A stretch of 64,000 bases of DNA from an uncultured bacterium (lineage in GTDB: Bacteria; Verrucomicrobiota; Kiritimatiellia; CAIKKV01; CAITUY01). Shown here one piece after another: positions 21,215-52,002 of this stretch. Made by a program: the position numbers and the translations under genes. The notes under the pieces are model-generated. The model was not told where the DNA came from. It made no database searches and saw only the letters and a program-made list of their open reading frames with translations. Each line of letters opens with the position of its first letter. Position 1 is the stretch's first letter. The DNA lies in contig CAITUY010000178.1 in assembly GCA_903895695.1 (NCBI GenBank), forward strand, positions 1 to 64,000, written 5' to 3'.

Positions 21215-22030
21215 CTACGGGGCGGTTGGGGCAGGCGCGGGCTCGAAGTCGAGAACGCCGTCGTCGTTCCGGGCCACGATCGTTCCTCCGGGCGGGACGA
21301 TCACAAAATCCTGGTCCCATTCCCCGTTGAACAGCTTGCGCAGCAGGCTCCATTCGCCCTTGCGAACCTCGAACTCCCAGTTCTGCTCGGTCGCGCGCGC
21401 CTTGGCCAGGTCGATGAACGGCCGCTCATCGCAGACGCCCATCTCCAAATAGAGGCTGCGGCAGTAGCTCTTCTGCCAGCCGCCAAGGCTTTCGATGATG
21501 TAGTCGGCGTTCTCTTTGCCGTACTTGGCCACCATGACGTCGTATGGATCGGTGAGACCCAGCTTCGCCATGACTCCTTCCATGCCGTAGGCCGGCCGTG
21601 CGTAGCCGTCTTCGCCGAACTGGTTGCGTTCGGTCCAACCCGTGGTCATATAGTAGGTGCCCGGGTGCTGGTCAAAATACGCCCGGTAGGCGGCACGCGA
21701 CCCGAAGAAGAATGTGATGCAGTCATGCGCCCGCGGAATCACAAGCGGGATCTGCCGCGCCTTGAGGCCGACCAATCCGTCGTTGCAGCGCGCATAGCCC
21801 AACAGGACCGCCTGGTACCCGATGTCCGGGTTCGCAGCGTCGACGACGGCCTGGATCTTCGCGAGCATATCCGCGCGGGGCAGATCGTGGAGCCCCTTGA
21901 GCAAAAACTCGACGTCGACGCGGTGCGGCGCCGAGGCCGCCAGGGCGCAGGCCTCCCGGTAAACGATCTCGCACCCAATGAACTTCAGCCTACGGCCGCC
22001 TTCGGGTACGGATTTCCAATTCAAGAGCAT
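21215..22030 (-). CDS. DUF1638 protein
   Basis: This 271-residue protein matches DUF1638: LKFIGCEIVYREA at the N-terminus, GYARCNDGLVGLKARQIPLV, PRAHDCITFFFGSRAAY, and GTYYMTTGWTERNQFG. DUF1638 genes are known near corrinoid-dependent methyltransferases in methanogens and anaerobes; their biochemical role is not firmly settled. It starts 13 bp after the GH42 stop, with AAAGG upstream, and is the last gene of an operon that also encodes a URO-D methyltransferase homologue. The initiator is placed at 22030 rather than upstream ATGs because of that site. Confidence 0.8.
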   Translation of the reverse strand: MLLNWKSVPEGGRRLKFIGCEIVYREACALAASAPHRVDVEFLLKGLHDLPRADMLAKIQAVVDAANPDIGYQAVLLGYARCNDGLVGLKARQIPLVIPRAHDCITFFFGSRAAYRAYFDQHPGTYYMTTGWTERNQFGEDGYARPAYGMEGVMAKLGLTDPYDVMVAKYGKENADYIIESLGGWQKSYCRSLYLEMGVCDERPFIDLAKARATEQNWEFEVRKGEWSLLRKLFNGEWDQDFVIVPPGGTIVARNDDGVLDFEPAPAPTAP

Positions 22031-22043
22031 GTCGCGACACCTT

Positions 22044-24269
22044 TCATGACACGCCATTATAGACAATCATCACACGAACGTCGAGCGGTGCCACCGTCAG
22101 GTCAACCACGCCATCCGTCTTCGCCACCGGTTCGCCCAGCAGGTCCTCGACCCGCGACCACCCGGCAACGGAAACACGCTCGGTGACGGGCTCGCCGGTC
22201 GGATTCGTGAAGATCCACGCTTCCTTGCGGGGAGTGACGCGCTTGCGCACGACGAGGCGTCCTTCGTGCTCGGGAGTCACGCCGCAGGCGGCGAGCAAGG
22301 TGCGGATGCAGGCATGGATGGCCGGGTCGCGGTAGGCCGTGCCATTATGGCCGACATAGGTACCGAGCAACCAGGCTGACCCCTTCCCCACCTGGCGTCG
22401 CACGCCGGCCGCCTCCGTGCCCGCACGAAGAACCGGCTCGCTCCCCGCGGGGGCGAAGGTCTCCAGGTACACGTTGGCCAGCATGCGCTGCCCCTGCAAC
22501 GGACCTGCTCCCTCCAGCATCTGCGTCGCCCGGTATTCGCCCCAGGTCCGTTCCGCCGGCGACCAACGTGCCCCATCGCCGGGTTCGCGCACCATCTGGA
22601 AGCTGGCTTGCTTCACCCCGAACAGGTCGGCGAGGATCGGCGACAGTTCGCCGCGATTGCAGAACCCGTTCTCGCTGACGCGGCCCGGCGCCGCTTCGCT
22701 GACCAGATGGCCACCGGCCTCGACGTAGCCCGCCAGCTTCGCCGCCACGTCCTCGGAGAGCGAGAGCGGAAATGGCAGGACCAGCACCGGGTACTCCGCC
22801 GCATGGTCCCAGTCGTGATCGACGCTGACGAAATCGAGCGGCACATTCAGGTCCCAGAGCAGGCGGTGCCAACCGCGCAGGCTGTACGCCAGGTTTTCGC
22901 CGCCCTGCGCCAGGTGCGCACAAATTTGGTGGGTGCGCTCGTTCACCAGGAGGCCGACTTTCGCCGGCTGCAGGGTCGGTCGGGCAAACACATCGGCGTT
23001 CGCCTGCAACGCGCGGCCAACACGCCCGGCCTCTTCCAGGCGCGGCGTGGTGTCGCCCGCGCTGTCGAGCAGACTGAAGCCGTTCTGCTCCGCGACTGCA
23101 ATCTCGGCGCGGGTCACCCAGAAAGAGATCGCCGTCACGCCCGAGCCCGTCGCGGTCAGCATCCAGCGGCGGATATCGTCGGCCGAGGGCACGCGCCCCT
23201 TCTGAAAACCCGTGCTGACCGGACCGCCCTGAAACTCCGCCGCCCAGACGGGCACGCCGCCCGCGTGGCCCTGGCCGGGATTGGCGGATCGAATGTAGTC
23301 ATACCGGTACGCCACGGTGTCCCAGGCCTCCGTGAGCAGGGCGTACTCGCGGGTAAACGGGCGTTTTTGCCCGTCGTCCCAACCATGGCCGCAGCCCCAG
23401 GCCGGATAGCACGACGAACCGAGGAAGTCCTGCGTCCGCGCGTAGGCCCAATCCTGCGCCGCCCCCAGCGCCGGACCGCCCTTGTGGGCAAACACGGGCC
23501 GCTTCAGCGGATCGGCCGCGCGGATGGCATCGGCGCGCGCCCTCAGGACGCCGGAAATCTGCACGTTGTCCATGAAGTACTGCCAGCACAGGTCCACCGG
23601 CGCCACTTGCCTTGGCGTTCCCGCGCCGCGAGAGGGAATGATGTCGCCCCAGGCGGCGTACCGGGTGTTCAAGGCGCGGTTGAGCGCATCGAGATCGCCG
23701 TAACGCTCGCCCAGCCAGCGGTGGAAAGAAGCCAGGGTGTTTTCGCAAAAACAGACCGCGTTGCCGACGATCCCATCGGACCAGTAACCGATCTCCTGCC
23801 AGGTATTCCAGACGACCACGTTCTCGTGTTTGCCGAGAGTCTGCACCAACCGGGTGATGAAGCGCAATTGATCAGCCATGGCGCCGGGATGATCGTAGCA
23901 CGGGCCCGGCTTGCCGTCGGCGGGCAGCGTGGTCGGCGCCTCGTAAGCGATGGTCAGGCCGTTACGCCCCACCATGCGGCAGGCCGGGTGTTTCACGTAG
24001 AGCCAGTGCGGGGCCTGTTCGCAGGTGAGGCCAAGGTAGACGCCCAGGTCGAGCTTCGCGGCGTGGCCGATCAATTCGTCATAACGCTCGAACTGGAACT
24101 GGCCTTCGGCAGGCTCGTCCGTCATCCAGTGTTCCTGAAGCTTGATCAGGTTGAAGCCCTGCTTCTTCAGGCGCTCCATGTCGCGCTTCAACTCCGGCAT
24201 GGCCGGCATCGGCTCGCGGCAGAGATGGGATCCGAGCGGAAAGAGCTTGCTGAACTGTGACGTCTTCAT
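22044..24269 (-). CDS. GH42-type beta-galactosidase
   Basis: This 741-residue protein has a TIM barrel starting LKKQGFNLIKLQEHWMTDEPAEGQF, the conserved VVVWNTWQEIGYW segment with the acid/base Glu, and a later VPVWAAEFQGGPVS segment with the probable nucleophile. A trimerisation-like GATase domain follows (LLVNERTHQICAHL, YPVLVLPFPLSLSEDVA). No signal peptide is seen. AAGGG precedes the ATG. The substrate may be beta-galactosides or related oligosaccharides. It lies between the FIST gene and DUF1638 in the same operon. Confidence 0.88.
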   Translation of the reverse strand: MKTSQFSKLFPLGSHLCREPMPAMPELKRDMERLKKQGFNLIKLQEHWMTDEPAEGQFQFERYDELIGHAAKLDLGVYLGLTCEQAPHWLYVKHPACRMVGRNGLTIAYEAPTTLPADGKPGPCYDHPGAMADQLRFITRLVQTLGKHENVVVWNTWQEIGYWSDGIVGNAVCFCENTLASFHRWLGERYGDLDALNRALNTRYAAWGDIIPSRGAGTPRQVAPVDLCWQYFMDNVQISGVLRARADAIRAADPLKRPVFAHKGGPALGAAQDWAYARTQDFLGSSCYPAWGCGHGWDDGQKRPFTREYALLTEAWDTVAYRYDYIRSANPGQGHAGGVPVWAAEFQGGPVSTGFQKGRVPSADDIRRWMLTATGSGVTAISFWVTRAEIAVAEQNGFSLLDSAGDTTPRLEEAGRVGRALQANADVFARPTLQPAKVGLLVNERTHQICAHLAQGGENLAYSLRGWHRLLWDLNVPLDFVSVDHDWDHAAEYPVLVLPFPLSLSEDVAAKLAGYVEAGGHLVSEAAPGRVSENGFCNRGELSPILADLFGVKQASFQMVREPGDGARWSPAERTWGEYRATQMLEGAGPLQGQRMLANVYLETFAPAGSEPVLRAGTEAAGVRRQVGKGSAWLLGTYVGHNGTAYRDPAIHACIRTLLAACGVTPEHEGRLVVRKRVTPRKEAWIFTNPTGEPVTERVSVAGWSRVEDLLGEPVAKTDGVVDLTVAPLDVRVMIVYNGVS

Positions 24270-24326
24270 GATTCCCTTATTCCTGTACACATCATTGGGT
24301 TCGGAACGCCGCAGCGGCACTACGCA

Positions 24327-25232
24327 TCACTCCGCCACCAGGCGTGAAGCCATCAGGTTGCCGAACTGGGGACGGCCGCCGAGCGTAACGAGTTCGCCGA
24401 ACAAAAAGCCGGCCAGGGTCCCCTCGCCCACGGCCAGCGGTGCGCGGAGCAGGCTCCTTAGCCCCGCGCAGCCGAAGACCAGCGCGTTCGGAACCGCACA
24501 GAACTCCTCCAGCCGCCGCGCCGCTGCCGCGCGCGACACGGTGCGCAATACCAGCCGCTTGTCGACGGGCAGGTCGGCGCCGGTGCAGAGGCGCTCGCCA
24601 TCGAATGACGCGTGGACGTTACGCCCGCCGGCATCGGCGAACGTGATGGATTCGCAGTCGCCCGCTTCCCGGTCACAGGCAGTCTGCCGTGCCCGAAAGT
24701 AGGAGGACGCCGACTGCCAGTCAGCGGCCGGATTCTCGCGCACCTGCGTGATCGTCCGGGGCCCTTGGGCCCGGAACTCGACGGCGGTGCCGGCCGGATC
24801 ATGCACGTTCAACGACTCAGCCCGCCAGACGCCGTCGGCGATCAACAGCACGGTCACATCCTCGGCCGGGCGCATCAATTGCCCCTGTACCTGCCCGGGC
24901 CCCCGCGCCGCGCCGCCGCCTGCCACGGGCACGCCCGGCAGAAGCTCCGCCCAACGGTCCAGGAAGGCCTCCATGCCCGACGAATGCGCAAACAAGACGA
25001 TGGCCGCCGTCGGTCTGGTTACGTCGTTGCGAAGTTGCGCCAGCACGCCGGCATAGCTCCCCGAAAAGGCAACGCCCCGCAGTCCTTTCTCGGGCCAACC
25101 GGCCGCCGCCGCCTCATCCGGCCCGCGCCAGACGCCCGGGGCCGCAATTCCATGCGATGCACAACCAAACGTATGCCCATCATCGGGCGGTGCATTACCG
25201 GGCGTCCAGAATGTCATGCGCCAATTCTTCAC
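24327..25232 (-). CDS. FIST-domain protein
   Basis: This 301-residue protein shows a FIST-like arrangement: an N-terminal half with IVLFAHSSGMEAFLDRW and LPGVPVAGGGAARG, and a C-terminal half with NALVFGCAGLRSLL, then GTLAGFLFGELVTLGGRPQFGN. FIST domains are thought to be small-ligand sensors linked to signalling. The GTG start at 25232 overlaps the GH2 stop (GTGA), which supports it over the internal ATG at 25217. A sensory module inside a hydrolase operon is odd; it could sense an amino acid or sugar acid. Confidence 0.7.
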   Translation of the reverse strand: MKNWRMTFWTPGNAPPDDGHTFGCASHGIAAPGVWRGPDEAAAAGWPEKGLRGVAFSGSYAGVLAQLRNDVTRPTAAIVLFAHSSGMEAFLDRWAELLPGVPVAGGGAARGPGQVQGQLMRPAEDVTVLLIADGVWRAESLNVHDPAGTAVEFRAQGPRTITQVRENPAADWQSASSYFRARQTACDREAGDCESITFADAGGRNVHASFDGERLCTGADLPVDKRLVLRTVSRAAAARRLEEFCAVPNALVFGCAGLRSLLRAPLAVGEGTLAGFLFGELVTLGGRPQFGNLMASRLVAE

Positions 25233-27382
25233 AGAAACTCTCGCTCCTCGCCGTTGAGCTCGCTGCGGAAGCCCATGCCTCCGGTCACCTCGTAGTAGAG
25301 GAGATCGTCGTCGAAACGCGGCGCGCCGTCTTTCTCCACGACCAGTTTTACAAAAAGCTGCGTATTGAACTTCGGGGTCTCGAAACGCATGGTTGCCGGG
25401 AACGAACAACCCGGTTCGACACTTAGGATACAACTTCCCCGGTCCCAGAGGCGATTGGCGGGATGCCCCTCGCGGACCTCCCAGCGCAGGAGCAGATCGC
25501 GCCCGGCAAACTCGTCGTTGAAGACGAGGATCGTCCGCTCGACTGCCGTCGCGGCGGGCAGCCCCGGTGCGCACAGGGGAAAATGCCCGCAGGCGTCGGC
25601 CTTGCGGTTGAGTCGCCAGAATTCGAGATCGAGCGCGAGCAGCGGGTGGCAGGCTTTCTGCAGGAGCCGGAGACCCGCGTGGCTCCAGGGGTTGGGCAGG
25701 TTGTTCTCGCCATAGACCGGATGGCGATTCTCCTCGGTCAGGAAGTCGGTGTTCTTGACGCCGGGGATGCAGGAGGCCCAACTCGACAGCAGCGTGTACG
25801 GCCGGGCATCGCTGGCGCCCGCCGCCCGGTACAGGGCAATGGAGGTGGCCCACCACGTCAGCCCCACCGCCGTGGAACCGCGCATCCAGTTGGACTCGCC
25901 GATGCCGTACGGACGGTCGTCCAGTGGGATTAGCGCATCGTTGTAGTCCAGCGGCGTGAAATAGACGCCGCCCTTGTCGTCATGGGTCAGATAGTGCTCG
26001 ATCCAGGTGAAATCCGGCTTGGCCCGGAGCGGCGCGAAAATCTCCAGCGGATTGAAGCCGGCCCGATCGCCAACCACGATGTCCTCAAAAATGGGGCGGG
26101 TGTCGTCCAACGCCTTGATGGCCTCGTACAGTTCCACGTGATAGCGCGGGTCCTTGTTCTGGGCCTCGTTCTTCGAGCTCCAGCGCACAATGGACGGGTG
26201 GTTCCGGTCGCGCCGGACGATATCCTGGAGACACTTCACCTCGTGGAAGCCGACGCCAGCGTCCATGTCGAATCCGTTCCAGCGGCAGGCGCTCTCCCCG
26301 ATCAGCATCAGCCCCAGTTCGTCACACACGTCGAGCATGTAAGGCGACCAGGGTCCCATGTGCTCGCGCTGGACGTTGTAGTTGAGCCGCAAGAAGTTGT
26401 CCACCGCCTTGGGCCAACCCGGATTCTCCGGACTCGGGGGAAGGAAACCCGGAAGGGTGTCTATGGCGTCACCCTTGCCGTCGTGGTCGATGCGGTCATA
26501 GTTGGCGACCTGCAGGTTGTCCCCGCGGAAGTTGATGCGAACGCCGTTTAGCTCGAAATGGTTCCCGGCCTGCCGTAGTTCGCGGAACCCGAACCGCGTT
26601 GCCCGCGCGTCGACCGCCGCCCCGTTCTCGAAGAGCGTCAGGTCCAGGTTGTGGAGTTGGGCGCGGTAACCCTCGCGGTAGGGAACATTCGGCCACCAGT
26701 AGCTTCCCGCTCCGCACGGCCAGGCGATCGGCCCGGTCTTGACGGTCCGAGTTTCGCCCGGCGCCAGCACCAGTTCCGTCGAAGGCAGCGCGGGATGCGG
26801 CCAGACATCGTCGTTGCAGGAGGCCAGGCTGCCGCCGATGCGGATCTTCCGCTCGCGCGCGGAGGCGTTCACAACGCGGATGTCGGCGTCCAGCGCGCCC
26901 CGCGCGACAGACGTCCGGACGAATACGTCGTCGATGAAGACGTCGGGATAGACTCGCAGCCAGGCGTCGCGGAAGATGCCGCGGGCGATGCATTCGCACC
27001 ACTCGGCCCAGTGCGGGGCGATTGGCCGCCCGTTCTTCCAGGCGCGCACGCTGATGCGCAGCACACAGCTTTGCCCGGGCCGGACGTACGGCGTCAAGTC
27101 CACGACCTGCGGGGTGAAGGCCGTCACCTCCTCGTGGATCTTCCGAAAGGAATCCACGTCAGTTCCAACGAAATACTCGGCCTGATGATTCACCGCCCCC
27201 AGTTCCAGGCGCGTCACCTGCGGCCGGCCGGTGTCGAGGATGGCGATACGAGTCTCGTACGTGCCGGCTTCGCAGGCAAACCCCTGCTTCAGCCAGCCGC
27301 CGCCGGGCACGACGATCGTCGTCTTCGCGCCGTTCTCGGGCGTGAAGGACCAGGTTCCGCCCAGGTTCATCTCGCGTAGCAT
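25229..27382 (-). CDS. GH2-family glycoside hydrolase, second copy
   Basis: This 717-residue protein has the GH2 layout: jelly roll from residue 1 (LGGTWSFTPENGAKTTIVVPGGGW), a domain with LYEAIKALDDTRP later, and a TIM barrel with the predicted acid/base Glu in SIVRWSSKNEAQN and a nucleophile candidate in YGIGESNWMRG. There is no signal peptide. It differs strongly from the other GH2 protein, with long insertions in the barrel. It lies between the URO-D gene (with a 186-bp repeat-bearing gap) and the FIST gene, and overlaps FIST by 4 bp. Confidence 0.85.
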   Translation of the reverse strand: MLREMNLGGTWSFTPENGAKTTIVVPGGGWLKQGFACEAGTYETRIAILDTGRPQVTRLELGAVNHQAEYFVGTDVDSFRKIHEEVTAFTPQVVDLTPYVRPGQSCVLRISVRAWKNGRPIAPHWAEWCECIARGIFRDAWLRVYPDVFIDDVFVRTSVARGALDADIRVVNASARERKIRIGGSLASCNDDVWPHPALPSTELVLAPGETRTVKTGPIAWPCGAGSYWWPNVPYREGYRAQLHNLDLTLFENGAAVDARATRFGFRELRQAGNHFELNGVRINFRGDNLQVANYDRIDHDGKGDAIDTLPGFLPPSPENPGWPKAVDNFLRLNYNVQREHMGPWSPYMLDVCDELGLMLIGESACRWNGFDMDAGVGFHEVKCLQDIVRRDRNHPSIVRWSSKNEAQNKDPRYHVELYEAIKALDDTRPIFEDIVVGDRAGFNPLEIFAPLRAKPDFTWIEHYLTHDDKGGVYFTPLDYNDALIPLDDRPYGIGESNWMRGSTAVGLTWWATSIALYRAAGASDARPYTLLSSWASCIPGVKNTDFLTEENRHPVYGENNLPNPWSHAGLRLLQKACHPLLALDLEFWRLNRKADACGHFPLCAPGLPAATAVERTILVFNDEFAGRDLLLRWEVREGHPANRLWDRGSCILSVEPGCSFPATMRFETPKFNTQLFVKLVVEKDGAPRFDDDLLYYEVTGGMGFRSELNGEEREFL

Positions 27383-27435
27383 GTCAAACTTCCTTCCTCC
27401 AGGCCCTCAGTCGCACGCTGGGGCCGCGGCCACTT

Positions 27436-27569
27436 AGCGCCTATCGAAAACCATCCTGCCACCGGGAGCGGAGCCGCTTCCGGCTCCGGCCCTTCGATGG
27501 CACTCAGGGCAGGCCGGCGCGGGAAGCCGCGCCGCTCCACAAGAGGCAGACGGGTTCTCGATAGGCGCT
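27436..27569 (+). repeat. Structured palindromic repeat, copy 1
   Basis: This 134-bp element has 17-bp terminal inverted repeats (agcgcctatcgaaaacc at 27436-27452 against 27553-27569, one mismatch). Inside are two hairpins, GGAGCCG-CTTC-CGGCTCC (27470-27487) and GGCGCGG-GAAG-CCGCGCC (27516-27533), enclosed by GGAGC/GCTCC. A 23-bp insertion separates the hairpins compared with copy 2. Its right end reaches the last base of the URO-D stop codon. It is homologous to 51892-52002 and, in its core, to 54597-54646. Confidence 0.8.
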
Positions 27570-28543
27570 CATCCGGCAGCGCGCAGGAACGCCTCGTAGG
27601 CCCACTGGTCCCACTCCGGCTTCACACCGATGCCGTTGAGATCCGGGTAGTTCTTGGCGATGAACCCGCCCCTGAAGGTTTCCACCAGGCGTTGCGTTTC
27701 GCGCTCGATCAACCCGCGGTCACCCGTGGGCAGAACCTTCTGGATATCGCAGGGTGCGAACAAACCAACCTTGTGTTGCCGCAACTTGGCCGCCAGGGCC
27801 GGCTGGTCATACACGGCGGGTTGATCGAACTGCAGACAGTCGATGCCGGCTTCGCACAGGTCGTCGACGAGGGCCCAGTTGTAGCCGCAGGAATGCTGGA
27901 TGACTTTCAGGCCGTGGCGGTGCGCGCGGGCGGTCAGCCGTTCGTAAAGCGGCCGGAAGATCTCGCGCCACATCGCCGGGCTCATCAGGGTCCGGTCCTG
28001 GACGCCGAGATCTTCGCAGAACATGATGCCGTCGAGACCCGCCTCGCCGAACCGGTCAATGGCCCGCTCCAGCAAGGTCGTCACCCGGTCGTGCAGCACG
28101 TCAATGCGGTCGCGGCATTCGATCAGGTCCATCAGGTAGACCTCCATCTTCCGCATGTAGCGGCAGATGGCGAACGGCCAGCCGACCATCCAGCCGACCT
28201 TGAACTTGTCGGTCGCAGAGACGCCCAGGTCGCGGGCGCCCTGGTAGCAGGCGGGGCTGGCGAGATCGGGGAGCTTGAGCTCGTCGAGCCGGTCCCACGA
28301 CTCAAGCACCGGCTTGAAGATCTCGCCGCCCTGCGACAGGCCGATGATCCGGTGCCACACGTTGCCCCAGAGGTCCGTGGAGTATTCAAAGTTGCCTTCC
28401 ACCCACACCTTGGGCTTGAACCCGTGGTCGGCGCCCGTCCAGGCAAAATCGTCCCGGCGATCCCGGTCAAAATTCAACCCGATGCGCTCCTCGCAGCGGT
28501 ACTCCATGTTCTGGCGGATGACTTCACGCGGTATCAAGGGCAT
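27569..28543 (-). CDS. URO-D family methyltransferase homologue
   Basis: This 324-residue protein has the uroporphyrinogen decarboxylase fold, in the branch that includes MtaA/CmuA-type methyltransferases. MFCEDLGVQDRTLMSPAMWREIF, LKVIQHSCGYNWALVDDL (with the His and Cys that bind zinc in MtaA-like proteins) and LFAPCDIQKVLPTGD are visible. True HemE is excluded by sequence and context. It probably moves methyl groups to or from a cobamide or thiol, but no corrinoid protein is nearby. It follows the isomerase gene by 46 bp. Confidence 0.8.
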   Translation of the reverse strand: MPLIPREVIRQNMEYRCEERIGLNFDRDRRDDFAWTGADHGFKPKVWVEGNFEYSTDLWGNVWHRIIGLSQGGEIFKPVLESWDRLDELKLPDLASPACYQGARDLGVSATDKFKVGWMVGWPFAICRYMRKMEVYLMDLIECRDRIDVLHDRVTTLLERAIDRFGEAGLDGIMFCEDLGVQDRTLMSPAMWREIFRPLYERLTARAHRHGLKVIQHSCGYNWALVDDLCEAGIDCLQFDQPAVYDQPALAAKLRQHKVGLFAPCDIQKVLPTGDRGLIERETQRLVETFRGGFIAKNYPDLNGIGVKPEWDQWAYEAFLRAAG

Positions 28544-28589
28544 GGTCCAGGGATCCTTTCAGCTTGCGTCGGCACAGGTCTCGCGGCCT

Positions 28590-30434
28590 TCACCCCTTCT
28601 TCCAGCGCAACTGCACCACCGTGCAAAAGCCGCCGTCGGGATTGACGAATTCATACTCGCCGAAACAGGCGGGCACAAGCGCCGTCTGCCATTTGCGGAT
28701 GGTGCTCGTCAACTTCGGGTTGCGTTTGGAGCGGATCGCCACAGCCTTGCCGACGGTCAGGGTCACAATATGCATGAACTTGCCTTCCGTGTCGGCATCG
28801 GCGCGGGTCTCGAAATGGTAGCGCTCGATCTCGAACGGCATGCGCGGATCGGAGGTGTACCGGTCCAACTGGTACTCCCGGGTCCACCGGATGACCTTGG
28901 GCTTGGCACGCAGGTGGTCCTTGACCCACGATTCCCGGCAATACTTATCGTTATCGAAGCTGTGGTCGAGATGCATGTTGCACGGCTTGCCGGTCATTGT
29001 CTTGGTCTTGTCGTCCCAGGACGGCCGGGCGAAGTCGTAGGTGAAGAACGAATACTCCGTTGCCGCGATGCTCGGGCAGGTATCCATCTCCAGCACCATC
29101 TGGTTGCCGCCGTGACCGTGGACGGTGCCGGGCGGGATCAGGAAAAGATCGCCGACGTTGGTGTCCCAATTAACGATGAAATCCTTCCAGTTGGGGATCA
29201 CCTTCAGGTTCTTCGAGTCGCGGCAAAGGCGTTCCCACTCCTCGATATCGGCTTCGTCCTTGTAGCCCATCCAGGTGTTGGCGCCCTCGTAGGCCTCGGC
29301 AATGTAGTAGGTCTCGTAGCGGCCGAGGGGTTCCTTGAAATGCCGACGGACATAGTCGGTGCCGGGGTGGTTGTGGATCGGCATGCTGATTCGTTCGGCC
29401 GGGGTCGGCTTGGGGAAATAGCCGTCGTCCAGCCAGACGTCCATGGGGAAGAGCCCGGGATAGGTCTCGGCGATGTGGCGGCCGAGAAACTTGTCCGCGT
29501 ATTGCATAAGATTCATCGTCGGCATATTGAGCATGGTCTCGCCGCCGATATCCACCAGCATGCTCAGTTCGGGGCCCGCGAGTTCATTCCAGGCGTTGCA
29601 TTCCAGGCCGGGCACGTCGAACTGTCCGCCCAGGTCCCTGTAACGGTAGGCGCCCCAGGGGCCGGGTTGATAGATCGGGACCTCCTTGACCGGGTATTGC
29701 AGGAGGGTCTGCATGATGCCGTCGTAGGCGGCGCGGGTCAGAAGTTTCAGGCTGTCGAAGGCGATGCCTTCGACCCAATAGTCCATGTGCTGGAGCAGGT
29801 AATGCTTTTGGCGGTCGAGCAAGTGGTAGTCGCAGTAGTAGTAGTCTTTCCAAGCGTAGTCCTTCTTGGGTTCATCCCAGCCGAAGGGCACGAGTTTGCC
29901 ATCCCACATCTCCCAGAGTATCGGCTGGCGCGTCTTGTCAAAATAGAAGCGCGCATCATAGGCGTCGCTCAGTGCCGGCACGGCGGCGCCCGGGCCGTAG
30001 ACGACGATCGCATCCGCGGCCGCGGGGGCACGCAGTTCGGCGCGAAGGGCTTCCACGGCGGCCGGCACCATCAGGTCGGCCAGATGCCCCTCGGTGTTGA
30101 CCACGCCGAAGCCGGGGTCGTCCGTCTCGGTGAACGAGCGCTTGTAGGCGGCGATCTCGTCGCGGGACTGGAAGACCGGCACGATCGACTTGCTGATCAC
30201 TTTGAGACCGGCGGCGGAGGCCTGTTGCGCCAGCGCGCGATTGATGGCCGGCCAGTCAATGTTGTACCAGCCGTCGAAGGCCAGGCGGAGCGGCCGCTTG
30301 CGGTCGGCCCGTCCGGCGATCAGACGGACGATACATTGCACGACCTTGTCGGGCCCGACCGCCAAGGCGTCGCGCCATTCGGGTTTCACCTCGATACGGT
30401 TCTCGGCGTATTTTCTCGATTCGTACAAGGGCAT
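28590..30434 (-). CDS. Class I mannose-6-phosphate isomerase-like protein with N-terminal extension
   Basis: This 614-residue protein has a C-terminal cupin of the class I phosphomannose isomerase type, with metal-site segments PIHNHPGTDYV, YETYYIAEAYEGANTW and IPPGTVHGHGGNQMVLE. It would interconvert mannose- and fructose-6-phosphate, fitting the nearby mannosidase. The first 230 residues (PLRLAFDGWYNIDWPAINRAL, DAIVVYGPGAAVPALSD) resemble a nucleoside-kinase-like alpha/beta domain without a recognisable P-loop. An AGGAG site 6 nt upstream decides the ATG at 30434. It is the first gene of the URO-D/GH2/FIST/GH42/DUF1638 operon. Confidence 0.8.
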   Translation of the reverse strand: MPLYESRKYAENRIEVKPEWRDALAVGPDKVVQCIVRLIAGRADRKRPLRLAFDGWYNIDWPAINRALAQQASAAGLKVISKSIVPVFQSRDEIAAYKRSFTETDDPGFGVVNTEGHLADLMVPAAVEALRAELRAPAAADAIVVYGPGAAVPALSDAYDARFYFDKTRQPILWEMWDGKLVPFGWDEPKKDYAWKDYYYCDYHLLDRQKHYLLQHMDYWVEGIAFDSLKLLTRAAYDGIMQTLLQYPVKEVPIYQPGPWGAYRYRDLGGQFDVPGLECNAWNELAGPELSMLVDIGGETMLNMPTMNLMQYADKFLGRHIAETYPGLFPMDVWLDDGYFPKPTPAERISMPIHNHPGTDYVRRHFKEPLGRYETYYIAEAYEGANTWMGYKDEADIEEWERLCRDSKNLKVIPNWKDFIVNWDTNVGDLFLIPPGTVHGHGGNQMVLEMDTCPSIAATEYSFFTYDFARPSWDDKTKTMTGKPCNMHLDHSFDNDKYCRESWVKDHLRAKPKVIRWTREYQLDRYTSDPRMPFEIERYHFETRADADTEGKFMHIVTLTVGKAVAIRSKRNPKLTSTIRKWQTALVPACFGEYEFVNPDGGFCTVVQLRWKKG

Positions 30435-30601: not shown

Positions 30602-30802
30602 TTCTCGGTCTTCAATGAACAAACCGGCCAGTCGCCGGGGGACTGGATTCGGAAACAGCGCGTCCGGGTCGCCCAGGAACTGCTAAAGCGCGGCCTGTCC
30701 GTTCGCCAGACAGCGGAACGCCTGGGTCTTTCATCGCGCCAGCAGTTCGCGCGCAGCTACCGCGCCGTGACCGGGCGCGCCCCATCGGGCCGCGGTCCTT
30801 GA
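30602..30802 (+). pseudogene. Remnant of an AraC-family regulator (C-terminal helix-turn-helix)
   Basis: The plus strand encodes an open segment reading FNEQTGQSPGDWIRKQR, RVAQELL, then SVRQTAERLGLSSRQQFARS, YRAVTGRAPSG and a TGA at 30800-30802. This is the second half of an AraC DNA-binding domain. The first helix-turn-helix and the sensor domain are absent, and a TAA blocks the frame just upstream at 30551-30553. It is a 5'-truncated remnant lying in the gap between the isomerase operon and the GH5 gene, and may have been the regulator of this region. Confidence 0.65.
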
Positions 30803-41429: not shown

Positions 41430-42677
41430 TTACGGCTGTCCCTGCAGTGCCTCCAGGCCGCGCACCATATAGGCCTGCAAGTGGCCCGACTCGTCGGAGT
41501 TGAAGAATGCCTTGGTGCCGTCCGGTGACAGGCAGGGATGGATATGCACGTCCGGGCCCCAGGACGAACGCGGATGGGCCACGCAGGTCCAGGATGAGAG
41601 CGCATCTCTTCCCGCTCGGTGAAACCTCGCGATATAGAGGCGTCCGCCGTGATCCGTCTTCCCGGTGTCAGTCACCAGCCAATGGCCCGCGGCATCGGTG
41701 GCGAAGTGATAGAAGCAGGGGGCATCGACCTTCCGGCTCAGGTCGTTGCGGATTCCCCCTGGCGAAGCGGCCCCCAGGTGCCCCGCTTCCGTCACCGCCT
41801 TACTTTCAATCAACTGGCACTCTGCCGGCTCCTTCGTCATGGTGCTGGTAATGGCCCAATCGGTTTTCCCCCGCCAGCACTGGTGTCCCTGGCATTGTTC
41901 ATTGCCATCCCGTCCCCACGGCATGGTCCCGAAGTCCGTTCCGTCATCTTTGATCACATGGATGTCGGCCCCGTTGCCGCCGACCAAACGACGAATCTCG
42001 CCGGCCGCATCACACGAATTTCCGTGATTCTCCTGAACCAGGATATCACGCCGTTTCGCTTCATCGGTCGATCGAGAATACTGGGGGTGCACGTTGCACC
42101 AGCTCGGCCCTTCCAAGATCAACTCCACGGACAGACGGACGAGGTCAAAGACCATCAATCCCCACGGCTGCTCTTCCCGGCGACCGTCACCGAGGAAGCA
42201 CGACAGGGCCAGGCGCTTGCCGTCCGAACGGATGGTGGACAGGGGATAGATGCAACTCGGACGATAAGCCGTCCCGGGAAGGACACTATCCACGACGAGT
42301 AACGTCCGCCGGTCCGTCCCGTCGAGGCCCACGCGCTTCAAGGTCAACTTCCCGCCGTTGACCTCAGTTTGATCGACAAAATAGTAAAGATGTCTTCCAT
42401 CAGGCGAGATCGAGGGAGCGGTGACTCCTGTTTCGTCGGTGATGGGACGCAGGGCGCAATTGTCGTCAAGATCACAGACCAGATACCGGTGACGGGGATC
42501 GTCCTTCGAACTGCCATGGGCCGTAGCGGATTCGTGCAGCACGAAGCGCTTGGAGTCCGGCGTAAAAACCTGGGCTTCCATGTAGAGGTGCGAACTTGGC
42601 AGGGGACCGGTTGTCAGTTGAACCACTTCCAGCCCCTGGGCGCCGTCAGGCGCCAAAAGGTCGTTACGAAGTTTCAT
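41430..42677 (-). CDS. TolB-like beta-propeller, possibly an oligogalacturonate-lyase relative
   Basis: This 415-residue protein has propeller blades of the TolB/WD40-like type (FTPDSKRFVLHES, ISPDGRHLYYFVDQ, RSDGKRLALSCFLGD, LSPDGTKAFFNSDESG). The general layout and conserved WCNVHPQYSRS and GRDGNEQCQGHQCW histidines recall PL22 oligogalacturonate lyases, whose metal site uses His and Gln, but I cannot prove the match. No signal peptide is seen. AAGGA lies 7 nt before the ATG. It follows the M55 peptidase gene by 49 bp and is the last gene of a URO-D/M55/propeller operon. Confidence 0.6.
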   Translation of the reverse strand: MKLRNDLLAPDGAQGLEVVQLTTGPLPSSHLYMEAQVFTPDSKRFVLHESATAHGSSKDDPRHRYLVCDLDDNCALRPITDETGVTAPSISPDGRHLYYFVDQTEVNGGKLTLKRVGLDGTDRRTLLVVDSVLPGTAYRPSCIYPLSTIRSDGKRLALSCFLGDGRREEQPWGLMVFDLVRLSVELILEGPSWCNVHPQYSRSTDEAKRRDILVQENHGNSCDAAGEIRRLVGGNGADIHVIKDDGTDFGTMPWGRDGNEQCQGHQCWRGKTDWAITSTMTKEPAECQLIESKAVTEAGHLGAASPGGIRNDLSRKVDAPCFYHFATDAAGHWLVTDTGKTDHGGRLYIARFHRAGRDALSSWTCVAHPRSSWGPDVHIHPCLSPDGTKAFFNSDESGHLQAYMVRGLEALQGQP

Positions 42678-42726
42678 CGGGGATTCCTTTCCTGCTGTGC
42701 CGTCGCCCGGCGTTGTCCTTCTCTTC

Positions 42727-43545
42727 TCAACTCTTGGCAATCGGCTGGTTCATGAGCGCAATGATGCTATCCGGGTGTTTGTCGGAAGTCTCGTACGGCG
42801 CAACGCTCCCGTTCTTCCGGAACCGAACCGTTCGCGTGTAGGGCGAATTCAGGACGGGAAAACGGAATGCCCCCGCGCTCTCCTTCAACGTCTGGAGCGC
42901 CCGCACTGCGCCTTCGCGAATCAGTGACCGGACAAGCTTGGGCGACTTGTGGACGGCGCTCAGTTTGGCGCTCCGGTACGATTCGGCATCCAGGTCGTCC
43001 AGGCCATCGGGCAGCAACCCGCGCTTGCCCGACACGGTCACGACCCCGGGCGTCAGGGCCGCTGCCTCCACGGTCAGCGCCTCCTCGCCGCAGGCCAAAA
43101 TCACCGGGACCCCCAGTTCCATCGCACACAACGCGAATTGCCCGTACTCACCGATCGAAATGCCGTTCACCCGCATGTCGGCATAGTTGAACCATTGCGT
43201 GTGAGTGATGTGCGAGTACGGCGTCCCTGCCTTGGCATGCTGCCCCACAAATGCCACGGCGGAAAATGTGCGATCCAACCCCCACGGCCACGCCGGCTCG
43301 CCGGGGCCTCGGAGCAGCAATGCTCTTTCGTCGAGCGTTTCCGGATCGATCCCGCCCGCCCCATGGCCATCCACCACCAGGACCTCTTTCGCCCCGGCGG
43401 TCATGAACCCATCGATGGCGGCATTCACCTCCTCGGTCAGAAGCCGTACGCCCTTCGCATAGAACCGCCCGGACGGGAGCACCCAGTCGTCATGATTCAG
43501 GACGCCGGCAACGCCCTCCATGTCCGTCATGATCAGTATCTTCAT
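42727..43545 (-). CDS. M55-family D-aminopeptidase (DppA-like)
   Basis: This 272-residue protein starts MKILIMTDMEGVAG with the metal-binding Asp8 and Glu10. VLVVDGHGAGG and VAFVGQHAKAGTPYSHITHT follow, the M55 zinc site. DppA-type enzymes release D-amino acids from D-peptides and form a decamer. The start overlaps the URO-D stop (ATGA). The grouping with a URO-D homologue and a propeller in one operon is uncommon; the M55 enzyme may act on a peptide- or amide-containing intermediate. Confidence 0.9.
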   Translation of the reverse strand: MKILIMTDMEGVAGVLNHDDWVLPSGRFYAKGVRLLTEEVNAAIDGFMTAGAKEVLVVDGHGAGGIDPETLDERALLLRGPGEPAWPWGLDRTFSAVAFVGQHAKAGTPYSHITHTQWFNYADMRVNGISIGEYGQFALCAMELGVPVILACGEEALTVEAAALTPGVVTVSGKRGLLPDGLDDLDAESYRSAKLSAVHKSPKLVRSLIREGAVRALQTLKESAGAFRFPVLNSPYTRTVRFRKNGSVAPYETSDKHPDSIIALMNQPIAKS

Positions 43546-44612
43546 TGCAGTGCGCCGCCCCCGCCTCGGATGCTCTTTCGGTTCTCGTCATACATCGCCA
43601 GGATATTCTCCAGGGGGATGTCCTCGATGAACTCCTGGCTACCGCACAGGATGTATCCGCCCCGCCCCTTTGTGATCTCCAGGTAGGACCGGACCTCGGC
43701 CCTGACATCCTCCGTCGTTCCGAAGGGCAGCGTTCTTTGGGTGTCAACGCCGCCATGGAAACAAAGATCGCCACCGAAATCCCGCACCAAGCCCGCCAAG
43801 TCCATTCCCTGTGCTGCCACTTGGATGGGATCCAGGATGTCCACCCCGTCTTCAATCAGGGCGGGGATAATGTCGCGCACGCCGCCGCATGAGTGCTTCA
43901 TCACCTTGCAGCCGTGCTCATGGGACACTTGGAAATAGCGCTTCAGCGGTTTGCGGAAGAACTCGTTCCACATCCCGGGCGATACAACCAGTCCGCGCTG
44001 GGTTCCGAAATCGTTTCCGAAATAGGCGATGTCCAGCAGACCGTCGGCAGCCTCCAGGAAACGCCGGGTGGCTTCGACCTCGTAATCCACCACATGCTGA
44101 ATAATGGCATGCGCCACCTCGGGCTTCGTGTGCATCCACACCATGAAGTTCTCCTGCCCGATAAGCCAACCGACTTCGTGGAAGAACGGACTCCACGGTG
44201 CGCCGAAAGTCGCATACGTGTCATGGACCTTTTCGCACTGCCCGCGCACCTGCGTGTAGTCGAGAACGCCCGGGTCAGGCCAGTGATGACTGTGGACCTC
44301 CGCGAGGCTCGTCTCCTCCGTGAACGGCGCAAGGGTAGTCGGGCGGCCGTCGCCGGGGTCGTTCTTCCGGTATTTGGCTCCCCACAGGTTCCGCCAGTAG
44401 CCATCGGCGTCGGGCCCCGTGTCCGGCTGTCCGTAGTCGAAGTGGACCCGCCGCATGTCCACGCCAAGAGCCTTCAGCAGTTCCTCGTAATCGGCCACGC
44501 CCAGTTTCCGCATCAGCCCGTCGGTTACGGACGGGTGCGCTCCATAGTCGGCCGGAGCCCGGTCCGTGGGCTTGTGGGCGATTGCCTGGAGCACTCTCTC
44601 TCGTGATGTCAT
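43542..44612 (-). CDS. URO-D family methyltransferase homologue, second copy
   Basis: This 356-residue protein begins MTSRERVLQAIAHKPTDRAP, a frequent start in the MtaA/CmuA-like branch. FGNDFGTQRGLVVSPGMWNE, CKVMKHSCGGVRDIIPALI (His and Cys as candidate zinc ligands) and CFHGGVDTQRTLPFGTTEDV follow. It is longer than and clearly different from the copy at 27.6 kb. AGGAG lies 8 nt before the ATG. It is the first gene of a three-gene operon. Substrate unknown; no corrinoid protein is present in the window. Confidence 0.82.
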   Translation of the reverse strand: MTSRERVLQAIAHKPTDRAPADYGAHPSVTDGLMRKLGVADYEELLKALGVDMRRVHFDYGQPDTGPDADGYWRNLWGAKYRKNDPGDGRPTTLAPFTEETSLAEVHSHHWPDPGVLDYTQVRGQCEKVHDTYATFGAPWSPFFHEVGWLIGQENFMVWMHTKPEVAHAIIQHVVDYEVEATRRFLEAADGLLDIAYFGNDFGTQRGLVVSPGMWNEFFRKPLKRYFQVSHEHGCKVMKHSCGGVRDIIPALIEDGVDILDPIQVAAQGMDLAGLVRDFGGDLCFHGGVDTQRTLPFGTTEDVRAEVRSYLEITKGRGGYILCGSQEFIEDIPLENILAMYDENRKSIRGGGGALQ

Positions 44613-44680
44613 CCCATCTTCTCCTGCATATGTGCCGCCAGACACTCAGTGACAAGGTTGACTACCCTTCAATGGCAGGC

Positions 44681-44709
44681 AGAGTAGGATGCCGGTCGCG
44701 GTGAATCAA
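44681..44709 (-). promoter_or_regulatory. Candidate promoter of the URO-D/M55/propeller operon
   Basis: TTGATT (44704-44709) and TACTCT (44681-44686) have a 17-bp spacing and lie about 70 bp before the URO-D start on the minus strand. Confidence 0.35.
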
Positions 44710-44770
44710 GGGTGGATCGACCCGTATGGCGTAGGCGTGGTGCCACCCCGGGGAATCGTTGCCTCAACCG

Positions 44771-44889
44771 TCAGGTCGTCGGCATGGCCAGGGTGACACA
44801 GGTTCCCTTGCCCGGGGAGGAATCCAATCGCAACTCGCCGCCGAAGCAGGCCACGCGCTCGCGCATTTTGGAAAGCCCCAGAAGCGAGT
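44771..44889 (-). pseudogene. Remnant of a NarL-type sensor histidine kinase
   Basis: The minus strand encodes LLGLSKMRERVACFGGELRL, then DSSPGKGTCVTLAMP and a TGA at 44771-44773. This is the C-terminal end of a HATPase_c domain (compare the GLGLxGMRERV and SxPGxGTxVT consensus). The rest of the kinase is missing; the preceding gene ends immediately upstream at 44890. The scrap shows a deletion or replacement at this junction. Confidence 0.65.
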
Positions 44890-45849
44890 CTATGGTTTAT
44901 GTGCGATGCCGTTGCCGATGGCTCTGAGTTGCTTGATAAATGATTCGGGAATCAGTCCGTTTTCTTGGATCGGGACATCCCAGGTGATCACTCCGCCCTT
45001 GCTCACGACGTGCTGAGTGTAGCCGCAGACCATTTCATTCGGAAAGCGAGGCTGCCCTGTGCACCAGTATTCGCCAAGGTAGGACAGCATGTGGAATCGG
45101 TCTTTGTGTCCGCTGGGTCCCGCAACGAACGGGCCTTTGCATTCAGGCAGGGCTTCCGCGACCTCTCCCGCGGTGAAGTCTTCGTGATCCGTGTAGTGGA
45201 TCACCGGCGTATGGATGCCGGGGTTAAAGGCGATGATCGCGTTCGGATTGCCGGCGCGAAGTGCAGCAGCCAACGTCCGGAAGTTAGGTTCCTCGTGATC
45301 GGGATACCGAAACTCAGCTCCGTAACACCCATCCACCCACCACCCCTGCACCTTTGACCCCCAGCGTAATGACCAGTCGCGGCACACCGCTTCCCAATGC
45401 CGCATGAATTCAACCCACCGGAACTGCGCCCAGCGTTCACCGGATCCCCATTCAAATCCGCCGTCGCCCCAATGCCGAGGCATTTCCAGTCCCTTGCGCG
45501 CCTCTCGATCGGCCCACGAACCATCGGCGGGCACATAGACCAGCAATTCGATCCCCAGCGGATGAAGGGCTTCATGCAGGTCAGACACAAGGTCACGCCG
45601 CGAGCATTTGCTCGGGCAGATCCCGGCGATACGGTCATAGGTTGCGTTCGGCGCACAATAATGCCCGGACCCTTGGCCGATCGTGATGCAGAAGTACGGG
45701 GCTTTCACCGACTGCAACTGTCGCGCGAGCCCGGCAACATCAAACGCATCGACCCGGCGATTCCATGCATCTGCTGTTGTTGGCGGTACGGTAAGGTAGT
45801 GGCAGAAGACACCCCAGCCTGAACGGGCGAACCATTCTGTGTCATGCAT
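44890..45849 (-). CDS. GH29-like alpha-L-fucosidase-family protein
   Basis: This 319-residue TIM-barrel protein begins HDTEWFARSGWGVFCHYL, the usual start of GH29-type fucosidase domains. YFCITIGQGSGHYCAPN and KVQGWWVDGCYGAEFRYP follow, where the Asp of WWVDG matches the GH29 nucleophile position. It is shorter than typical fucosidases and lacks the C-terminal beta-sandwich and a signal peptide. It starts 10 bp after the large heparinase-like gene. Hydrolase function is likely; the sugar is uncertain. Confidence 0.65.
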   Translation of the reverse strand: MHDTEWFARSGWGVFCHYLTVPPTTADAWNRRVDAFDVAGLARQLQSVKAPYFCITIGQGSGHYCAPNATYDRIAGICPSKCSRRDLVSDLHEALHPLGIELLVYVPADGSWADREARKGLEMPRHWGDGGFEWGSGERWAQFRWVEFMRHWEAVCRDWSLRWGSKVQGWWVDGCYGAEFRYPDHEEPNFRTLAAALRAGNPNAIIAFNPGIHTPVIHYTDHEDFTAGEVAEALPECKGPFVAGPSGHKDRFHMLSYLGEYWCTGQPRFPNEMVCGYTQHVVSKGGVITWDVPIQENGLIPESFIKQLRAIGNGIAHKP

Positions 45850-51746: not shown

Positions 51747-51891
51747 TCATGCGGGTCCATCACGCGCGGAGGGAAGTCTGCTGACACATTGCAGGTGGCC
51801 GGCCTTGCAGCGGGGACAGAGCGTGACGTCGACGCCGGTTAGTCGAAGGATTCGGGCTGCGGCATCTTCCCCGATTGGCGAAGCCTCGGGT
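51747..51891 (-). pseudogene. C-terminal remnant of an IS91-like transposase
   Basis: The minus strand reads ...EDAAARILRLTGVDVTL, then CPRCKAGHL and a short tail to a TGA at 51747-51749. The LTGxD...CPxC pattern is the zinc-finger-like end of IS91/IS1294-type transposases. All upstream parts are missing; palindromic repeat copy 2 begins exactly where the open segment stops. The identification is from this short motif alone. Confidence 0.5.
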
Positions 51892-52002
51892 AGAGCCTAT
51901 CCGAAACCCTCCTGCCACGGGGAGCGGAGCCGCTTCCGGCTCCGGCCGGCGCGGGAAGCCGCGCCGCTCCGCAAGTGGTAGACAGGTCTCGGGATAGGCT
52001 CT
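51892..52002 (+). repeat. Structured palindromic repeat, copy 2
   Basis: This 111-bp element has terminal arms agagcctatccgaaacc and a near-complementary right end. Its core 51921-51970 reads GGAGC, hairpin GGAGCCG-CTTC-CGGCTCC, GGCC, hairpin GGCGCGG-GAAG-CCGCGCC, GCTCC. It is homologous to 27436-27569 but lacks that copy's 23-bp insertion. Differences in the terminal arms are partly compensated on the other arm. Confidence 0.8.

Follow-up and report, generated by a model that had tools for sequence, protein, structure and literature searches.

The question raised by this locus is why genes for a URO-D superfamily protein and a DUF1638 protein are found in one array with glycoside hydrolases. 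The window (the whole stretch of DNA analysed, 64,000 nt of contig C178) was initially annotated as carrying a six-gene operon with no corrinoid protein, and the set was proposed to serve either the removal of methyl groups from methylated sugars or a methyl-linked regulation of sugar breakdown. Taken together, the relatives of this bacterium and the rest of its genome suggest anaerobic use of methylated sugars.

Organization of the operon

All six ORFs were verified at positions 21215-30434, on the minus strand, and their tight, operon-like spacing suggests that they form a single operon. From its upstream end, it comprises a phosphomannose-isomerase-like (PMI-like) cupin of 614 aa (28590..30434), a URO-D superfamily protein of 324 aa (27569..28543), which is our candidate methyltransferase I, a GH2 family glycoside hydrolase of 717 aa (25229..27382), a FIST-domain protein of about 300 aa (24327..25232), a GH42 family glycoside hydrolase of 741 aa counted from the ATG at 24269 (22044..24269), and a DUF1638 protein (21215..22057) starting from the ATG at either 22057 or 22030. 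Pfam matches to GH42 (PF02449, 117.6 bits), GH2_C (PF02836, 54.5 bits), URO-D (PF01208, 53.5 bits) and DUF1638 (PF07796, 108.9 bits) each exceed the curated cut-offs. The PMI-like and URO-D genes are separated by 46 nt, the GH2 stop codon overlaps the GTG start of the FIST gene (GTGA, 25232-25229), and the GH42 and DUF1638 genes either overlap or lie 14 nt apart, depending on the start chosen.

The URO-D and GH2 genes are 186 nt apart, the widest gap in the operon, and in this gap lies a dispersed palindromic repeat (27436..27569, no strand assigned) with 25-nt arms 84 nt apart, which has no part in the function proposed below. The repeat is about 135 bp long and MITE- or REP-like: it occurs in many copies genome-wide, with 78-97% identity among loci, including a further copy in the window (51891-52002) and others at loci L307, L087, L310, L287 and L324. 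In divergent orientation to the PMI-like gene, 30608..30787 (plus strand) encodes what is left of an AraC-type regulator, a C-terminal piece that is 73% identical over 62 aa to an AraC protein encoded in the same divergent position in genome G016; since the gene in G016 is intact, the operon studied here seems to have lost its own regulator through decay.

Conservation of the gene set

Gene neighbourhoods were mapped by tblastn and HMM searches, as longest-ORF calls yielded antisense ORFs in high-GC DNA. Among the genomes compared, the complete six-gene set was found in the genome of origin alone, and DUF1638 together with GH42 was not seen outside it. What is conserved is a core, which recurs in relatives and is partly present in Clostridia, Spirochaetes and Armatimonadota: a PMI-like gene, then URO-D and GH42 genes, often accompanied by FIST. 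Thus, the gene set of the initial annotation is conserved in its core and not in its exact composition. Orthologues of the window URO-D (up to 82% identity) occur in other contexts, with the remaining five genes not nearby, and we rejected them as a sole guide to conservation, since the URO-Ds that accompany PMI-like orthologues belong to other subfamilies.

The five closest PMI-like loci are all at least 78% identical, and in four of them (the window, G016, and G133 twice; the exception is G021) the next gene is a URO-D, a pairing that exceeds chance. The genes in G016 run AraC (divergent), PMI-like, URO-D, GH3, BNR, FIST fragment, URO-D and GH42; G133 has two copies of the PMI-like, URO-D and GH42 combination, while G046 and G083 combine PMI-like with FIST. 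GH42 orthologues at the PMI-like loci of G016 and G133 are 72-75% identical. Across 80 named PMI-like loci from many phyla we counted AraC-type regulators at no fewer than 26, GH42 at 12 or more, FIST at 11 or more and URO-D at 10 or more, all of which are lower bounds because many of the loci are short; most of them have neither URO-D nor corrinoid genes within the available sequence. The PMI-linked URO-Ds fall into several subfamilies, as if the isomerase were retained and the URO-D swapped together with the hydrolases.

It could be argued that URO-D and DUF1638 serve general corrinoid or methionine metabolism and that the fluidity of the genome brought them next to hydrolases by accident. 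That neither the exact six-gene set nor this placement of DUF1638 was found in another genome would agree with this view, as would the dispersed repeat and the decayed AraC regulator, both signs of rearrangement. Yet the PMI-like/URO-D/GH42 order recurs independently, and with different URO-D subfamilies, and we regard placement by chance as improbable.

The PMI-like and FIST proteins

The PMI-like protein gave no match in a Pfam search. Its N-terminal part of about 240 aa matches no family, and its likeness to class I phosphomannose isomerase is confined to the C-terminal part and is weak (E 0.27 against 1QWR); it is also similar to small homologues in relatives. Residues H354/H356, E374 and H439, which are plausible cupin metal ligands, are invariant in all seven aligned orthologues. 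Other neighbours of PMI-like genes are sugar-binding proteins, LacI regulators, D-lyxose isomerase, DUF4432 and PfkB, and these sugar-related genes across loci indicate that it is a general sugar-catabolic protein. PIG-L-type deacetylases are the commonest genes beside it (13 of 86 neighbours at the 80 loci). Proteins of about 1300 aa with no Pfam match are encoded near the PMI-like/FIST pair in L155 (11377-15324) and L156 (2840-6679).

The FIST protein scores just under the FIST_N cut-off (20.9 versus 23.2 bits). A confident AlphaFold model built from 12 homologues (pLDDT 91.9) has a single PDB match at E<=0.001, the FIST-domain protein FBXO22 (3e-4), although it superposes poorly. In G016, the FIST fragment (L193, 16801-17073) lies just upstream of URO-D and GH42 and is about 70% identical to the C-terminus of the window protein, which suggests that FIST has been lost in that genome.

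Could FIST sense a methylated ligand and control sugar breakdown, as in the methyl-linked regulation put forward initially? In the class sampled, FIST homologues were found in four of the 146 relatives' genomes, each time at a PMI-like locus, and beyond the presence of FIST nothing specific speaks for such regulation. The protein carries no attached output domain, and FIST lies beside the PMI-like gene with no URO-D in L155, L156, L204 and L212. We consider regulation of this kind extremely improbable.

The URO-D protein

The AlphaFold model of the URO-D protein (pLDDT 94.8) has human UROD and Methanosarcina mazei MtaA as its top folds, with a TM-score of about 0.6; Foldseek also matched sugar aldolases and epimerases, though less strongly. 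While the single sequence found no PDB match with phmmer, a profile of 25 homologous sequences retrieved MtaA (4AY7) as the sole sequence match, over the H-x-C-G segment. In this segment H217, C219 and G220 are invariant in all 25 homologues, and H217 and C219 align with zinc ligands of MtaA. Of the methyltransferase residues asked for by the initial annotation, H217-x-C219-G is kept, but the third zinc cysteine of MtaA is absent: the region reads KNYPDLN, with Y299 and D301 invariant. Because of this replacement the protein is not MtaA in the strict sense, and it scores 30.1 bits with the NCBIfam MtaA model, for which the cut-off is 400. Loss of the third cysteine is nevertheless compatible with methyltransferase I activity, since CdmB lacks zinc and a Moorella O-demethylase is also reported to be zinc-free (PMC13222342). 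The known O-demethylases MtvB, OdmB, VdmB and MtoB likewise belong to the URO-D superfamily (PMC13222342).

The genome encodes 68 URO-D homologues. The N-terminal RQAGR signature of HemE was found in none of the 60 examined, the window protein included, which rules out a HemE (uroporphyrinogen decarboxylase) function for the latter. The two highest-scoring homologues, on contigs C89 and C109, were also rejected as HemE: they lack the signature and have methyltransferase-type motifs, CG...GC or HICG...GC. The H-x-C motif is kept in about 34 of the 60, and the third position is mostly His, Asn or Asp. The URO-D gene on C109 adjoins a GH5 homologue, and, among the matches listed for 37 own-genome URO-D regions, the neighbours include GH95, GH4, arabinofuranosidase, GFO/IDH/MocA, BNR and GH42. 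None of these carbohydrate families is among the 25 families listed for control regions; the counts are small, and give no more than a hint that hydrolases are enriched near the URO-Ds of this genome.

A second URO-D gene in the window (43542-44645, within 41430-45849 on the minus strand) has as neighbours an M55 D-aminopeptidase, a beta-propeller protein and a weakly alpha-L-fucosidase-like protein. Elsewhere, we noted URO-Ds with a C-terminal thioredoxin-like extension in L161 (16052-17428, with a Thioredoxin_3 match) and, by eye, in L009 (1492-3120).

Corrinoid genes in the genome and in relatives

A search found no B12-binding or RACo match on the window contig C178, in agreement with the initial annotation, and the corrinoid protein and RamA-like activator that it proposed to seek elsewhere are indeed present in the rest of the genome. 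A single standalone corrinoid protein is encoded on contig C146, followed by a Pterin_bind methyltransferase, FTHFS, MTHFR and FolD; the genome also contains two RACo genes, a CdhC/ACS-family protein and a second DUF1638. Hence, corrinoid protein, methyltransferase II and activating enzyme are all encoded in the same genome as the window URO-D, but not beside it.

The presence or absence of window-URO-D homologues agrees with that of RACo in 135 of the 146 relatives, and the two co-occur in 77 of 82. Of 20,000 permutations within genera, 2 attained this agreement, and a Fisher test at the genus level gave p = 4e-13. In one genus with nine genomes, URO-D and RACo are found in exactly the same three. 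This co-occurrence could stem from a shared anaerobic lifestyle. DUF1638 also tracks RACo, which is present in 65 of the 66 DUF1638-containing genomes among the 146 relatives, and DUF1638 orthologues in relatives often adjoin RACo, the corrinoid protein or both. L161, L169 and L170 have DUF1638 in the company of URO-D, RACo and the corrinoid protein, and in L169 and L170 a URO-D gene is part of the group itself. Published fitness data link DUF1638 to a RamA-like protein and to corrinoid reactivation (PMC5764234).

These data bear on the possibility that the URO-D is not a methyltransferase at all and represents a TIM-barrel clade recruited as a sugar isomerase, epimerase or lyase, with only an indirect corrinoid link. 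Loss of the third zinc ligand with invariance of Y299 and D301, the weaker structural matches to aldolases and epimerases, and the many PMI-like loci with no corrinoid genes (most of the 80, many of them short) would be expected in this case. The invariance of H-x-C-G in the 25 homologues argues against it, as do the correspondence of URO-D with RACo even inside genera and the adjacency of URO-D to the corrinoid protein and RACo in L169, L170 and L256, and we find recruitment to such a role unlikely.

Loci uniting sugar and corrinoid genes

L256 and L161 provide the best support for a single pathway that unites URO-D, corrinoid chemistry and sugar catabolism. In L256, from Spirochaetales bacterium SM3-B16.1, 16 kb of DNA carry two URO-Ds, an AraC gene, a PMI-like gene, RACo, a PocR-type regulator and a corrinoid protein, along with a three-component sugar ABC transporter, a PfkB kinase and a mannitol dehydrogenase; the single Pterin_bind match in that genome is inside a 1215-aa frame of MetH size. 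In L161, genes for a corrinoid protein, RACo and DUF1638 lead into a second group, which comprises an AraC regulator, a sodium symporter, rhamnose mutarotase and two URO-Ds.

The same loci help to weigh the nature of the methylated substrate. The URO-D might act as a corrinoid methyltransferase on a methylated aglycone, that is, a methoxylated aromatic or other small methyl compound that accompanies the glycan or is released with it. Characterised URO-D methyltransferases I use methoxylated aromatics and haloalkanes (PMC13222342), and the corrinoid associations of URO-D leave its substrate undefined. However, in L256 and L161 the URO-D and corrinoid genes lie amid sugar transporters, a sugar kinase, a polyol dehydrogenase and rhamnose mutarotase, and no aromatic catabolic genes are found among the genes annotated there. 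An aglycone substrate therefore appears rather unlikely to us. Demethylation of methylated sugars, as first proposed for this locus, is the most economical reading, with such sugars as candidate substrates; overall, the initial proposal is supported in part.

A proposed route for sugar demethylation

Many polysaccharides of algae, plants and microbes contain O-methylated sugars. We propose, with chances that we judge to be about even, that the operon serves the catabolism of an O-methylated glycan, the URO-D demethylating sugars onto a shared corrinoid protein. GH2 and GH42 would release the methylated sugar, and the URO-D, judged by homology and context, would act as methyltransferase I, passing the O-methyl group to cob(I)alamin on the corrinoid protein encoded elsewhere. 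The Pterin_bind methyltransferase II, the gene for which lies beside that of the corrinoid protein, would transfer the methyl group to tetrahydrofolate, from which it may flow onward through MTHFR, FolD and FTHFS, and possibly CODH/ACS; the genes are present, and the flux is our supposition. Inactivated corrinoid would be re-reduced by RACo, a known role of that protein, presumably aided by DUF1638, as the mutant fitness data indicate. The PMI-like cupin may isomerise the demethylated sugar or its phosphate, and FIST may sense a ligand. In such a scheme one corrinoid hub would serve many substrate-specific URO-Ds scattered over the genome. Its extension to anaerobic glycan degraders in general, with dozens of URO-Ds, each with its own hydrolases and sugar enzymes, acting on sugars of differing methylation and feeding a single corrinoid protein and, through it, folate one-carbon metabolism, is offered more tentatively, and we lean somewhat against it at present.

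Comparison with known systems

It is already established that URO-D-superfamily corrinoid enzymes cleave methyl ethers of methoxylated aromatics, and that a P450 acts on 6-O-methyl-galactose (PMC13222342, PMC10033563). The proposed route resembles the MtvB, OdmB, VdmB and MtoB systems of acetogens and archaea, and the related CdmBCA system, in combining a URO-D methyltransferase I with a corrinoid protein, methyltransferase II and an activating enzyme; their substrates, however, are methoxylated aromatics or haloalkanes, while the URO-D studied here sits with glycoside hydrolases, and CdmBCA forms one cluster, as opposed to one corrinoid hub that would serve many URO-Ds (PMC13222342). With methylcobamide:coenzyme M methyltransferases of the MtaA type (4AY7) and the Mlp clusters (PMC10418091) the window URO-D has the H-x-C-G segment in common, but it differs from MtaA in lacking the third cysteine, in scoring far under the MtaA profile cut-off and in having no coenzyme M context. 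The P450 acting on 6-O-methyl-D-galactose from porphyran also removes a sugar methyl ether after glycoside hydrolases, but needs oxygen and yields formaldehyde (PMC10033563), whereas the route proposed here is corrinoid-based. In Phaeobacter and Ruegeria, DUF1638 is likewise tied to a RamA-like protein and corrinoid methyl transfer, and serves methionine synthase and glycine betaine demethylation (PMC5764234, PMC12478193), in contrast to its position here at the end of a sugar operon. Corrinoid demethylation of sugars was not found in the open-access literature, with subscription papers mostly outside the scope of the search, and open-access searches on URO-D and glycans in Kiritimatiella or Lentisphaera, on methyl-rhamnose and corrinoid, and on FIST and sugar operons returned nothing relevant.

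If confirmed, the proposed demethylation would account for the dozens of URO-D genes in these bacteria, would provide a function for an unassigned part of the URO-D superfamily, and would place the tie between DUF1638 and corrinoids in a new setting. It would also link polysaccharide breakdown to folate/Wood-Ljungdahl methyl metabolism, and, should the more general arrangement of many URO-Ds around one corrinoid protein hold true, polysaccharide methylation would be a methyl source for anaerobes.
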